DNA of 64,000 bases, from the NCBI RefSeq assembly GCF_009859475.1, contig NZ_CP044549.1, positions 5,270,001 through 5,334,000 on the forward strand, given 5' to 3'. The position numbers and the translations under genes were made by a program. The DNA is from Hydrogenophaga sp. BPS33. Lineage in GTDB: Bacteria > Pseudomonadota > Gammaproteobacteria > Burkholderiales > Burkholderiaceae_C. Numbering within the stretch: the first letter of the stretch is position 1; each line of letters opens with the position of its first letter. This document shows positions 12,883 to 16,714 of the stretch, one piece after another. The notes below the pieces were generated by a model that saw nothing but the letters and a program-made list of their open reading frames with translations, had not been told where the DNA came from and did no database searches.

Positions 12883-14007
12883 TCAGCCGCGAGCCGTCTT
12901 CACCGCCTGCGACAGCACCTCCAGCGCCTGCAGCGAATCGTCCCAGCCCAGGCAGGCGTCGGTGATGCTCTGGCCGTACTTGAGCGCGCCCACATCGTCC
13001 TTGCCCGGGGTGAACTTCTGCGCACCCGCCTCGATGTGGCTCTCGATCATCACGCCGAAGATGCTGCGCGAGCCCGCCTCGATCTGGCCTGCGATGTCGC
13101 GCGCCACGTCGAGCTGCTTCTCGTGCTGCTTGCTGCTGTTGGCATGGCTGCAGTCCACCATCAGGCGCGGCGCAAGCTTGGCGGCTTCGAGCTCCTTCAC
13201 CGAAGCGGCCACGCTGGCGGCGTCGTAGTTGGGCGCCTTGCCACCGCGCAGGATCACGTGGCAGTCCTTGTTGCCGTTGGTCTGCACGATCGCCACCTGG
13301 CCGTTCTTGTGCACCGAGAGGAAGTGGTGGCCGCGCGAGGCGGCCTGGATCGCGTCAGTCGCGATCTTGATGTTGCCGTCGGTGCCATTCTTGAAGCCGA
13401 TCGGCGCGGAAAGACCGGAAGCCAGTTCGCGGTGCACCTGGCTCTCGGTGGTGCGCGCGCCGATCGCACCCCAGGCGATGAGGTCACCGATGTATTGCGG
13501 CGAGATCACGTCGAGAAATTCGCTGCCCGCCGGCAAGCCCAGGCGGTTGATCTCGATCAGCAGCTGGCGCGCGATACGCAGGCCTTCGTCGATGCGGTAG
13601 CTCTCGTCGAGGTAGGGGTCGTTGATCAGGCCCTTCCAGCCTACGGTGGTGCGGGGTTTCTCGAAATACACGCGCATCACGATCTCCAGCGTGTCGGCGT
13701 ATTTCTCGCGCAGGGGCTTGAGGCGGCGCGCGTAGTCGACTGCCGCTTCGGGATCGTGGATCGAGCAAGGGCCGATCACAACCAGCAAGCGATCGTCCTG
13801 CCCGTGCAGGATGTGGTGGATACGTCGGCGGGTCTGGCTGATCAGCGCTTCCACGGGCGTGCCGCCAATGGGGAAGAAGCGGATGAGGTGTTCAGGAGGC
13901 GGCAACACGGTGATGTCCTTGATGCGTTCGTCGTCGGTCCGGCTGGTCTTGTCGGCGGGACGGGCATGCCAGGCGTCGCTGCTGGCGGAGGCGTTTTTGG
14001 CGGTCAT
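12883..14007 (-). CDS. aroG: 3-deoxy-7-phosphoheptulonate (DAHP) synthase, class I
   Basis: This 374-residue enzyme condenses phosphoenolpyruvate and erythrose 4-phosphate, the committed step of aromatic amino acid synthesis. Motifs include LLVVIGPCSIHDPEAAVDYA, VMRVYFEKPRTTVGWKG, AIGARTTESQVHRELASG, GFKNGTDGNIKIA, and MVDCSHANSSK. It is of the AroF/G/H type; which amino acid inhibits it cannot be decided by eye. The ATG has an AGGAG site. The transcript starts far upstream and passes through a Phe/Tyr/Trp-rich leader peptide and terminator at 14067-14197, so expression is probably controlled by attenuation. Confidence 0.95.
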   Translation of the reverse strand: MTAKNASASSDAWHARPADKTSRTDDERIKDITVLPPPEHLIRFFPIGGTPVEALISQTRRRIHHILHGQDDRLLVVIGPCSIHDPEAAVDYARRLKPLREKYADTLEIVMRVYFEKPRTTVGWKGLINDPYLDESYRIDEGLRIARQLLIEINRLGLPAGSEFLDVISPQYIGDLIAWGAIGARTTESQVHRELASGLSAPIGFKNGTDGNIKIATDAIQAASRGHHFLSVHKNGQVAIVQTNGNKDCHVILRGGKAPNYDAASVAASVKELEAAKLAPRLMVDCSHANSSKQHEKQLDVARDIAGQIEAGSRSIFGVMIESHIEAGAQKFTPGKDDVGALKYGQSITDACLGWDDSLQALEVLSQAVKTARG

Positions 14008-14066
14008 CACGAGGCTCCTGAGTGGGGTTGAATGAAAAGAAGAGAGAGAGAGAGGGGGAAGGGACG

Positions 14067-14100
14067 AAAAAAAACCGCCGGGCTTGACGCTCCGGCGGTT
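14067..14100 (-). terminator. Attenuator (Rho-independent terminator) upstream of DAHP synthase
   Basis: Minus-strand RNA: AACCGCCGG, ten-base loop, CCGGCGGTT, followed by a run of T (eight in total, 14074-14067, two of them paired in the stem). It lies 22 bases after the leader-peptide stop and about 60 bases before the DAHP synthase start. Because no gene ends here other than the leader, it is best read as a conditional terminator. Its 5' arm (CCGCCGG) can instead pair with CCGGCGG at 14148-14142 inside the leader reading frame. Confidence 0.88.
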
Positions 14101-14122
14101 TGATCGAGATTCGGTGATGCGC

Positions 14123-14197
14123 TTACAGCTTCGCCTCTCGTCCGCCGGGGACTGAGAACCAAAAGTAAAAAGCAAAAAAGACGAAGCGCGAAGACAT
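14123..14197 (-). CDS. Aromatic-rich leader peptide of the DAHP synthase attenuator (24 residues)
   Basis: A 24-codon frame whose residues 5-14 read FVFFAFYFWF: six Phe, one Tyr and one Trp in ten codons. The remainder is SVPGGREAKL. This composition matches leader peptides such as PheL, where ribosome stalling on scarce aminoacyl-tRNA controls a downstream terminator. The start lacks a Shine-Dalgarno sequence (CCAACCCC precedes ATG) and sits eight bases after a TACATT -10 element, so the mRNA is probably leaderless or nearly so. Codons 17-19 contain CCGGCGG, which can form the antiterminator. Confidence 0.85.
   Translation of the reverse strand: MSSRFVFFAFYFWFSVPGGREAKL
14142..14148 (-). 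promoter_or_regulatory. Antiterminator strand CCGGCGG within leader codons 17-19
   Basis: CCGGCGG here is identical to the 3' arm of the terminator and fully complementary to CCGCCGG of its 5' arm (14098-14092). A ribosome stalled on the aromatic codons would leave it free to pair and prevent termination. A ribosome that reaches the stop codon, six codons further on, would cover it. Confidence 0.7.
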
Positions 14198-14205
14198 GGG
14201 GTTGG

Positions 14206-14214
14206 AATGTAGCA
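14206..14214 (-). promoter_or_regulatory. Extended -10 promoter element TGCTACATT for the DAHP synthase leader
   Basis: Minus-strand TGC-TACATT matches the TGN extended -10 pattern. The predicted start lies within two bases of the leader peptide ATG at 14197. The element begins ten bases after the tldD stop codon. No good -35 hexamer is visible. Confidence 0.5.
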
Positions 14215-14223
14215 CAGGCAACT

Positions 14224-15684
14224 TCAAGCGGTTCCGCCGACCGTCAAGCCGTCGATGCGCAAGGTCGGCTGACCCACGCCCACCGGCACGCTCTGGCCTT
14301 CCTTGCCGCAAGTGCCCACACCGCTGTCGAGCTTCATGTCGTTGCCGATCATGCTCACGCGGGTGAGTGCGTCCGGGCCATTGCCCACCAGCGTCGCACC
14401 CTTCACCGGGTACTGGATCTGGCCGTTCTCCACCCAGTAGGCCTGGCTGGCGGAAAACACGAACTTGCCGCTGGTGATGTCGACCTGGCCACCCCCGAAA
14501 TTGGTGGCGTACAGACCCTTCTTGATGCTGGCCACGATTTCCTCGGGCGCCTTGTCGCCGCCGAGCATGTAGGTGTTGGTCATGCGCGGCATGGGCACGT
14601 GGGCATAGCTCTCGCGCCGGCCGTTGCCGGTGGGTTTGACGCCCATCAGGCGCGCGTTCATCGCGTCCTGGATGTAGCCGCGCAGGATGCCGTCTTCGAT
14701 CAGCACGTTCTTCTGCGAGACATGGCCTTCGTCGTCGACGTTGAGCGAGCCGCGGCGGTCGGCGATGGTGCCGTCGTCCAGCACGGTGACGCCCTTGGCG
14801 GCCACGCGCTGACCGATCTTGCCGGAGAAGGCGCTGGAACCTTTGCGGTTGAAGTCGCCTTCCAGGCCATGTCCCACCGCTTCGTGCAGCAGGATGCCAG
14901 GCCAGCCCGACCCGAGCACCACCACCATCTCGCCGGCGGGCGCGGGGCGGGCGTCGAGATTGGTCAAGGCATAGGAAACGGCTTCGTCGACATAGGCCTG
15001 CACTTGCTCGTCGTCGAAGTAGCCGAGCCCGAAACGGCCGCCGCCACCCGATGAGCCGGCCTCGCGCCGGCCCGCCTGCTCGGCAATCACCGTGACCGAC
15101 AGACGGATCAACGGGCGCACGTCCGCCGCCAGGGTGCCGTCGGCGCGCGCCACCAGCACCACGTCGTACTCGCTCGCCAGGCCGGCCATGACCTGCTTCA
15201 CGCGCGGGTCCTTGGCCTTGGCCATGCGTTCCACTTTTTCCAGCAACGCGACTTTGGCGGTGCTGTCGAGCGTGCCGATGGGGTCCAGACCCGGATACAG
15301 CGAACGCGACTTGGAGACCTTGGCGGCCGGCACCTTCACCTGGCGGCCCTGGCCTTGAGCGGAGATCGAGCGCACGGTATGCGCGGCGTCGAGCAGCGAG
15401 CTCCAGGACAAATCGTCGGAGTACGCGAAAGCGGTTTTCTCGCCACTGACCGCGCGCACGCCGACGCCCTGGTCGATGCTGAAACTGCCGGTCTTGACGA
15501 TGCCCTCTTCCAGGCTCCAGCCCTCGCTGCGGGTGGTCTGGAAGTAGAGGTCGGCATCGTCGACACCGTGGGACATGATCTCGCCCAGGGCACGTTGCAG
15601 GTGCGAGGGAGAAAGACCGAAGGGATCGAGCAACAAGCCTTGGGCGGTGGCCAGGCGGGCCAGGGTGGGTTCGCGTGAAATCAT
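14224..15684 (-). CDS. tldD: Metalloprotease TldD
   Basis: This 486-residue protein is the catalytic half of the TldD/TldE (PmbA) complex, which degrades or matures unfolded peptides such as microcins and CcdA. The zinc-binding motif HEAVGH lies at residues 267-272, followed by GLEGDFNRKGSSAF. The C-terminal region has the conserved TNTYMLGGD and FGGGQVDITSGKFVFSASQAYW segments. TldE is not in the window. The start is the ATG of MISREPT, placed six bases after a good TACAAT element with a TTGGCA -35 box, which indicates a leaderless message. Confidence 0.95.
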   Translation of the reverse strand: MISREPTLARLATAQGLLLDPFGLSPSHLQRALGEIMSHGVDDADLYFQTTRSEGWSLEEGIVKTGSFSIDQGVGVRAVSGEKTAFAYSDDLSWSSLLDAAHTVRSISAQGQGRQVKVPAAKVSKSRSLYPGLDPIGTLDSTAKVALLEKVERMAKAKDPRVKQVMAGLASEYDVVLVARADGTLAADVRPLIRLSVTVIAEQAGRREAGSSGGGGRFGLGYFDDEQVQAYVDEAVSYALTNLDARPAPAGEMVVVLGSGWPGILLHEAVGHGLEGDFNRKGSSAFSGKIGQRVAAKGVTVLDDGTIADRRGSLNVDDEGHVSQKNVLIEDGILRGYIQDAMNARLMGVKPTGNGRRESYAHVPMPRMTNTYMLGGDKAPEEIVASIKKGLYATNFGGGQVDITSGKFVFSASQAYWVENGQIQYPVKGATLVGNGPDALTRVSMIGNDMKLDSGVGTCGKEGQSVPVGVGQPTLRIDGLTVGGTA

Positions 15685-15690
15685 TGGGCC

Positions 15691-15719
15691 ATTGTAAGAA
15701 TGGTCGCCCCCTGTGCCAA
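15691..15719 (-). promoter_or_regulatory. Sigma-70 promoter of tldD (TTGGCA-17-TACAAT), leaderless
   Basis: Minus strand: TTGGCA (15719-15714), 17-base spacer, TACAAT (15696-15691), six bases, then ATG. This is the best complete promoter in the window. The predicted transcription start coincides with the start codon. Confidence 0.8.
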
Positions 15720-15739
15720 CGCCAGGGTCTTCGCGCCAT

Positions 15740-16714
15740 TCACTTGTCGATCTTGATCTTGCCGTCAATGATCACCTTGCGCCATTTCTGGATGTCGTTG
15801 CTCACGCGCCTTGAGAAATCTGCAGGGTTGCTGGCGACGATCGTGAAGCCGGCCTCCTCCAGCTTCTTGCGCATGGCCGCGTCGATGAGCGCCCGTCGGC
15901 TGTCCTCGCTGACCTTGCGGACGATGGCCGCAGGCGTTCCTGCCGGGGCAAAGAGACCAAACCACACGTCCGACTCGTAGCCAGGAAAGCCCGACTCCGC
16001 GACGGTCGGAATGTCAGGGACCAAGGGGCTGCGCTGGGCGCTGGTCACGGCAAGCGCGCGCAACCGCCCTGCCTGCAAATGCGGCAACGTGGTCATGACC
16101 ACATCGAAGCTGGCGGTCAGTTGACCCGCAATCAGGTCGTTCATGGCGGGACCGGAACCCTTGTAGGGGACCGGCAGCAACGAGATGTTCGCGCGCGTGG
16201 CAAGCATCGCCATGGACATGTGCGGTGTGGCACCGACGCTGCCGTTGTACGGAATCTCGCCAGGGTGGGCCTTGGCATAGGCGACAAATTCGGCCAACGA
16301 ACGGACCGGCAGCGAGGGGTGCACCGACAGGATCTGTGGAATCGTCACCAGTTCGGTGACCGGCAGGAAGTCGCGCTGCACGTCGTAACGCAAATTGGGA
16401 TACAAGGTCTGCGCCACCGCATGGGTGGTGACGGTGCCCAGCAACAAGGTGTGACCATCGGGCTTGGCCTTGGCTGCATACTCCGCGCCGATCACGCCAC
16501 CGGCGCCCGCACGGTTCTCGACGATGACAGGCTGTTTCCAGGCTTCCCCGAGCCGCTCTGCCAAGCTGCGAGCAAGGAGGTCTGTGGACCCACCAGCGGC
16601 GAAGGGTACGACGATCTTCACGATCGCGTTGGGGTAGTTGTCCTGGCTCCAGGCGGGCGCAGGTGCAGATGCGAAGGCCGCCAGGCACAACAGCAGGGAA
16701 TGAATACGCTTCAT
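15740..16714 (-). CDS. Bug-family (TctC) receptor, hydantoinase operon
   Basis: This 324-residue periplasmic binding protein has a Sec signal (MKRIHSLLLCLAAFASAPAPAWSQ). The mature domain begins NYPNAIVKIVVPFAAGGSTDLLARSL and contains VENRAGAGGVIGAEYAAKA, LLPVPYKGSGPAMNDLIAGQ and VPDIPTVAESGFPGYES, all family hallmarks. It follows HyuB by 35 bases on the same strand, suggesting that it captures the substrate of the HyuAB enzyme. No TctAB permease is near. Confidence 0.9.
   Translation of the reverse strand: MKRIHSLLLCLAAFASAPAPAWSQDNYPNAIVKIVVPFAAGGSTDLLARSLAERLGEAWKQPVIVENRAGAGGVIGAEYAAKAKPDGHTLLLGTVTTHAVAQTLYPNLRYDVQRDFLPVTELVTIPQILSVHPSLPVRSLAEFVAYAKAHPGEIPYNGSVGATPHMSMAMLATRANISLLPVPYKGSGPAMNDLIAGQLTASFDVVMTTLPHLQAGRLRALAVTSAQRSPLVPDIPTVAESGFPGYESDVWFGLFAPAGTPAAIVRKVSEDSRRALIDAAMRKKLEEAGFTIVASNPADFSRRVSNDIQKWRKVIIDGKIKIDK

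Follow-up and report, generated by a model that had tools for sequence, protein, structure and literature searches.

Attenuation by a translated leader peptide is a textbook form of control, with the trp operon (TrpL) and pheA (PheL) of enterobacteria as its standard cases, and the multivalent ilv leaders, also enterobacterial, each combine codons for several end products of one common pathway. The element described here precedes aroG, the gene for a DAHP synthase, in a Hydrogenophaga genome of 6.77 Mb. It resembles the TrpL and PheL attenuators in having a leader ORF with regulatory codons, alternative 1:2, 2:3 and 3:4 pairing and a terminator with a U tract. Unlike them, it targets the common entry enzyme of the pathway and mixes codons for all three aromatic amino acids, the stop codon of its leader lies 3' of region 2, and no Shine-Dalgarno (SD) sequence precedes the leader. 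The ilv leaders serve branched-chain amino acids on a leadered mRNA, whereas the present element serves aromatics on an mRNA that is predicted to be leaderless.

In Sinorhizobium meliloti, the 5' end of the trpL leader RNA is the ATG of the leader ORF and the RNA may act as a leaderless mRNA (excerpt of PMC7298713). The likeness to the present locus lies in the leader ATG at the 5' end of the RNA, which is predicted here, and in the aromatic pathway; the differences are that trpL/rnTrpL serves the Trp pathway only, stands before trpE(G), encodes a 14-residue peptide and belongs to another bacterial class (same excerpt). The uORFC-13-1 motif upstream of aroF in Acholeplasma is read by its authors as likely attenuation, and they mention an earlier hypothesis of attenuation for E. 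coli aroF (excerpt of PMC8632094). There too, a DAHP synthase gene is preceded by a short ORF, which has at least one Phe codon, and by an apparent terminator, but the 24 sequences of the motif come from Acholeplasma and environmental DNA only, and it has a ribosome binding site (same excerpt). In Burkholderia cenocepacia, 82 5'UTRs give short transcripts (excerpt of PMC5688073). The excerpts of PMC2965389 and PMC5343134 report no DAHP synthase leader of the present kind.

Taken singly, leader-peptide attenuation, multivalent sensing and leaderless leader ORFs all have precedents; neither their combination at aroG nor any report of the present attenuator was found in the literature, of which mainly open-access papers were covered. 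The older comparative studies of attenuation by Vitreschak (2004) and Panina (2001) may mention it. The small RNA ncS35 of B. cenocepacia was considered as a possible precedent and rejected because it lies elsewhere (excerpt of PMC5760752).

Layout of the leader and its aromatic codons

The window, i.e. the whole stretch of 64,000 nucleotides that was analysed, carries aroG on the minus strand (12883..14007) with an ATG start at 14007 and the SD sequence AGGAG at 14019-14015. Its product is a type I DAHP synthase that matches NCBIfam TIGR00034 aroFGH (E 3.1e-162, above the family cut-off), and two Hydrogenophaga loci (L035 and L036) are among its closest named relatives with 90% identity. Upstream on the same strand, outside the switch, is tldD (14224..15768, start not fixed), which matches NCBIfam PRK10735.1 metalloprotease TldD above the cut-off. 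The original prediction named a set of attenuator elements between these two genes, and all of them are present on the minus strand: an extended -10 element TGCTACATT (TGC-TACATT, 14206..14214, within TGTGCTACATT), a leader ORF MSSRFVFFAFYFWFSVPGGREAKL of 24 codons from the ATG at 14197 to the TAA at 14123 (14123..14197), a CCGGCGG core in codons 17-19 (14148-14142), and an intrinsic terminator (14067..14101) with the arms AACCGCCGG at 14100-14092 and CCGGCGGTT at 14081-14073 and eight T at 14074-14067. A simple promoter and terminator scan of the window listed neither the terminator of the aroG leader nor a promoter on the minus strand, a result that its loop limit (8) and its requirement for two hexamers probably explain. 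Rfam release 15 has no match in the window at the gathering score, and at E values up to 10 the region 13950-14350 gave Hrs12 alone, with a score of 18.3 bits where the gathering score is 70.

For the comparison 113 loci were gathered, and the DAHP synthase gene was placed in 112 of them (all but L003). An ORF was counted as aromatic if at least five of 12 residues are Phe, Tyr or Trp; the window leader has such residues at eight of 12 (residues 5-16), and its aromatic control codons are codons 5-14 (FVFFAFYFWF, 14156..14185). An aromatic ORF lies upstream of the DAHP synthase gene in 91/112 loci. Among the 109 loci with a full-length upstream stretch of 320 nt, the rule holds for 90 upstream stretches compared with 2/109 reverse strands and 19/545 dinucleotide shuffles, and at least seven aromatic residues of 12 are found in 71/109, 0/109 and 0/545, respectively. 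A GGCGG core within the ORF together with a CCGCC...GGCGG terminator core is present in 86 of the 91 loci with an aromatic ORF; L076, L078, L091, L094 and L110 do not have both cores and were left out. The count of 86, and that of 61 used below, include two repeats (L004 of L002 and L034 of L017), and the sets of distinct sequences number 74 for the outer-column covariation, 83 for the fold and stall scans, 73 for the peptides and 72 for the antiterminator pairs.

Phe is found in all 73 distinct leader peptides, Tyr in 72, Trp in 60 and all three in 59, with means of 4.66, 1.66 and 0.85 residues per peptide for Phe, Tyr and Trp. Two loci, L022 and L056, fall below the aromatic-ORF rule, L056 with a weaker leader that contains His. 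L022 has kept the attenuator RNA while promoter and ATG are absent, and both a chimeric contig and a real loss are possible. His is mixed into the aromatic run in L056 and L201 (YHFWHFH and FYFWHFH), which hints at drift or loss of aromatic codons. With the same test, no aromatic leader was found in L061-L064, L066 and L087, which are from Cupriavidus, Polynucleobacter and one MAG, with one of them located on Cupriavidus chromosome 2.

The two halves of the leader are conserved differently in the 30 same-genus-type leaders. Tyr, Trp and most Phe positions are fixed as residues, with the Tyr codon divided evenly between TAC and TAT (15/15) and with both TTT and TTC at most Phe positions. The region 2 codons GTC, GGC, GGA, CGA and GAG are invariant in 30/30 leaders, even though the third base is fourfold degenerate in four of the five. 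The Ser codon standing between them varies (TCA 16, TCT 11, TCG 3), and in most of the folds this third base is the one left unpaired in the 1:2 hairpin. With the aromatic codons varying synonymously and the silent sites of region 2 frozen, what is conserved is the peptide in the front half and the RNA in the back half. Of the 162 Phe codons in these leaders, 92 are TTT and 70 TTC; the aroG gene of the window has one TTT and seven TTC. TTC is preferred in three genes of the window (aroG 7/8, tldD 10/11, mpl 19/21), in contrast to the TTT-rich leaders. The excess of TTT might aid stalling or keep the stretch unstructured.

RNA pairing and the switching model

RNA folding gives -21.2 kcal/mol for the terminator (regions 3:4), -23.8 kcal/mol for the antiterminator segment (14150-14091) and -15.2 kcal/mol for the segment of the 1:2 hairpin (14166-14127). 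Region 2, the 5' strand of the antiterminator, lies inside the ORF at 14136..14148, and region 3 (14092..14109, UCUCG...AACCGCCGG) is both the 3' strand of the antiterminator and the 5' arm of the terminator, which makes the two structures mutually exclusive in silico. The CCGGCGG strand of the original prediction is thus present but was drawn too short, because region 2 reads CCGGCGG-A-CGAGA and pairs with UCUCG...CCGCCGG. The 1:2 hairpin (14129..14164), an anti-antiterminator that overlaps the last aromatic codons and region 2, is a fourth attenuator element that was absent from that account. The fold of the whole leader is just mildly unusual (z = -1.95; 9/200 shuffles fold as well), and therefore the case for an attenuator rests on comparison and not on folding energy.

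The alignment and the covariance model R1 were built on 59 of the 86 loci. The 1:2 helix has two-sided compensatory changes at 5/9 pairs, with 85.7% of cells paired. When the 1:2 helix and the terminator are taken together, 92.3% of cells are paired compared with 87.2% after shuffling (reached by 0/500 shuffles) and 40-58% when the partners are slid by 1-3 columns, and there are 46 two-sided changes compared with 17.9 in a shuffle that does not remove relatedness. Two other measures are weak: further pair types number 21 compared with 18.9 after shuffling (reached by 45/500 shuffles), and two-sided change occurs at 7 pairs, a count that slides of -1 and +2 also reach. The terminator helix is 99.8% paired in the 59 sequences, its core having been required in their selection, and the five core pairs of terminator and antiterminator, which were subject to the same requirement, do not vary and give no covariation signal.

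Outside the core, the first terminator pair is GC in 51, AT in 21 and TA in 2 of the 74 distinct leaders, i.e. it is paired in 74/74 compared with 55.6 expected from shuffling. Region 2 follows the same outer column in the 2:3 pairing (64/74, 51.9 expected), and the second pair outward is near expectation (60 compared with 56.5, and 59 compared with 56.0). The antiterminator pairs were counted on anchored strands because the MAFFT alignment displaced one lineage by one base in region 2. In the outer antiterminator segment, which is CGAGA with UCUCG in the window, the 72 distinct pairs have -9.52 kcal/mol with their own partners compared with -8.40 kcal/mol when permuted (0/500). GGCGG is kept even though the reading frame shifts between lineages (CCC GGC GGA; CTG GCG GAT; CCC TGG CGG in L080), which is not what a constraint on the peptide would be expected to produce. 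A local hairpin around region 2 is predicted in nearly every distinct segment; L097 folds otherwise. The original prediction had staked itself on the aromatic codons and the pairing being conserved in relatives, and both are conserved.

Stalling was modelled with an assumed ribosome footprint of -15/+12 around the A-site codon and checked with -18/+13. With the former, the antiterminator in the window has a probability of 0.97 for codons 2-13; this falls to 0.14 for codon 14 and to 0 for codons 15-23, and rises again to 0.58 for codon 24 and 1.00 for the stop codon. With the latter it is 0.97 at codons 2-13, 0.00 at codons 14-24 and 0.60 at the stop codon. The claim that stalling on the aromatic codons frees CCGGCGG is therefore borne out by the folding model. 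The end of the aromatic run coincides with the boundary in the scan, and because a stall at Phe14 would be of little help (0.14 or 0.00), the effective sensors would be codons 5-13. Across the 83 distinct leaders, the effective codons hold 549 of 599 aromatic residues compared with 438 of 1266 other residues. Non-aromatic codons ahead of the aromatic run are also effective by this measure, and the scan leaves the front boundary of the run unexplained.

A ribosome at the stop codon had been expected to mask CCGGCGG, and this was not supported in the window, where the antiterminator forms with a probability of 1.00 or 0.60 depending on the footprint. As the stop codon does not clearly mask region 2, the off state in the window would have to rely on release of the ribosome and on the 1:2 hairpin. 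With the ribosome at the stop codon, the antiterminator has a probability of at least 0.5 in 55/83 leaders, and in leaders with the stop directly after GGCGG (e.g. L046 and L058) the probability is 0.00 and region 2 is masked. Without a ribosome, before region 4 is made, the window leader has a probability of 0.26, and 36/83 leaders reach 0.5 or more. The logic of the off state, as modelled, is uneven across lineages. At equilibrium of the full-length RNA the terminator wins in most loci (mean 0.94-0.99 across the 83 leaders; exceptions include L079 and L097), and consequently the decision must be kinetic and made during transcription, as is general for attenuators of the trp/phe kind.

In the proposed mechanism, the extended -10 element would direct RNA polymerase to start on the leader AUG or beside it, and the ribosome would load on a leaderless message. 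When charged tRNA-Phe, -Tyr or -Trp is scarce, the ribosome would stall in codons 5-13 and occupy the 5' arm of the 1:2 hairpin, so that region 2 would pair with region 3 and transcription would continue into aroG. When all three aromatics are ample, the ribosome would run on and leave, and the 1:2 hairpin would form and trap region 2; region 3 would then pair with region 4 and transcription would end in the U tract. The conservation of the aromatic residues, the frozen antiterminator, the covariation of the helices and the position before DAHP synthase genes support the central claim of the original prediction, attenuation of aroG by a mixed Phe/Tyr/Trp leader. We infer, with a probability of about 0.93, that a transcription attenuator of the trp/phe type controls aroG and thereby the entry enzyme of aromatic biosynthesis.

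Promoter spacing and the start of the leader message

The term Comamonadaceae-type is used here for 61 loci (up to L071 plus L074) grouped by similarity rank and not by taxonomy. In 60 of them the sequence TGnTAnAnT ends 6-8 nt ahead of the leader ATG, and the 15 nt searched in each of the 61 contain none of six SD-like words. In 40 further genomes, a slightly looser -10 pattern lies 6-9 nt before the ATG in 37/40 and an SD-like word is present in 1/40. These 40 genomes, from 39 genera, are the 20 top matches, the 15 weakest and five between on the family list of R1, and they may overlap the training loci. ATG starts are the rule in this sample, with the reservation that the scripts prefer ATG among equal starts and the ATG count is not independent. 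A similar -10 spacing is seen in Xanthomonas (L104).

Transcription normally starts about seven nt after the -10 element. With a -10 element that ends 6-8 nt before the AUG, the 5' end of the mRNA would coincide with the AUG or lie 1-2 nt upstream (predicted start at 14197..14199, minus strand). The arrangement has the features of a promoter for a leaderless mRNA, i.e. a spacing from which +1 would fall on the AUG or beside it, an AUG start and no SD sequence, and from its sequence the leader mRNA appears to be leaderless.

Attenuation could also be real with the leader translated from an ordinary leadered mRNA, made from an upstream start or by read-through from tldD. This would agree with the direction of tldD, which reads toward the leader, with the leader 5' ends being predicted only, and with the 25 loci outside the Comamonadaceae type, where the best -10-like site lies 25-39 nt upstream in 21/25 and an SD-like word occurs in 1/25. 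A leadered message is nevertheless unlikely, because the extended -10 element is nearly fixed at its short distance in 60/61 loci and in 37/40 more genomes, and because SD-like words are almost absent before the leader (0/61 and 1/40) whereas aroG in the window has AGGAG.

The leaderless arrangement can also be followed as a sequence pattern. In the genome of the window, TGTGNTACATTN{4,9}ATG has a single occurrence, at the aroG leader. The strict pattern GTGCTACATTN{6,8}ATG is found in 87/150 genomes of the family compared with three genomes with the reversed pattern; it stands directly before the R1 match in 69/150, and elsewhere only in the other 18 (positions compared by hand). Occurrences of GTGCTACATTN{6,8}ATG away from the aroG leader were seen in many family genomes (G000-G723), and they outnumber those of the reversed control. 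The same promoter arrangement may serve further leaderless genes.

An inverted-repeat-like element, T(A/C)AG(A/G)C-N4-GTCA, was seen by eye about 26-12 nt before the -10 hexamer in a subset of the same-genus-type loci (L018, L021, L030, L031, L033, L035 and L036). The window is without this element, which is possibly an operator.

Distribution of the element and its place in the pathway

All 150 genomes sampled from the family, each at least 95% complete, contain one match of model R1 with E <= 1e-6, and the model matches in 115/115 genera. At E < 1e-7, matches were found in 60/250 genomes of the order and in 7/275 genomes of the class sample, the genome of the window being included in both counts. 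Where the locus of a strong match was fetched and its downstream gene checked (L116-L148), a DAHP synthase gene follows directly in 33/33 cases, and at least L116 and L126 are from genomes that also supplied training sequences. Another 23 weak matches (L149-L171, E 3e-5 to 0.002) are probably due to chance, as 22 have no DAHP synthase match and L167 has one of 35%.

A conserved short transcript might instead be mainly a trans-acting small RNA or peptide, with the control of aroG secondary, as the terminated leader RNA acts in trans in S. meliloti (rnTrpL and peTrpL; excerpt of PMC7298713). Such a primary role is highly improbable here, since conservation tracks the cis pairing and the aroG neighbour, the ends of the leader peptide vary freely among relatives, and there is no Rfam match; an additional role in trans is still compatible with these observations. 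It is a doubtful extension of the attenuator reading that the leaderless three-amino-acid attenuator is the master aromatic sensor of the whole family and that its terminated RNA of about 130 nt, or the peptide, also acts in trans like rnTrpL/peTrpL.

The gene tldD is in the fetched flank of 57/86 loci, at distances of roughly 26 to 1091 nt (extrapolated from alignments). Because the distance varies and tldD is missing from some flanks, the leader and its promoter belong to aroG and not to tldD. It is scarcely credible that the terminator merely ends tldD transcription, that aroG has its own downstream promoter and that the ORF is incidental: in the window the leader ATG follows the tldD stop codon after only 26 nt, and a terminator after a gene is ordinary, but the unit stays with aroG in the 29/86 loci without tldD in the fetched flank, tldD appears hundreds of nucleotides away in others (e.g. 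L042 and L057), 33/33 strong R1 matches with a locus precede a DAHP synthase gene, and both the freezing of silent sites and the aromatic conservation would be left without a role.

R1 matches the genome of the window once. In the same genome, no aromatic leader ORF was found in the approximately 600 nt before the matched parts of the second DAHP synthase gene, trpE and pheA (best 2/12), where pheA coding sequence takes up part of the pheA stretch and a leader higher up an operon would lie outside the stretches covered. These stretches contain one T tract, before the second DAHP synthase gene, with no evident hairpin by eye, and the trpE-like matches L213 and L214 are internal and uninformative. 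If no branch leaders exist, the entry step, rather than the branches, is where aromatic attenuation acts in this host.

Attenuation is thereby placed at the first common step of aromatic biosynthesis, unlike the enterobacterial textbook case with its pheA and trp branches. The prediction is that the charging states of three tRNAs would be summed by one short leader on a leaderless message, which offers a clean system for studying how leaderless initiation is coupled to attenuation. The work also provides a covariance model for an element without a matching Rfam family. For non-pathogenic Comamonadaceae, the attenuator is a practical target for de-repressing aromatic production.
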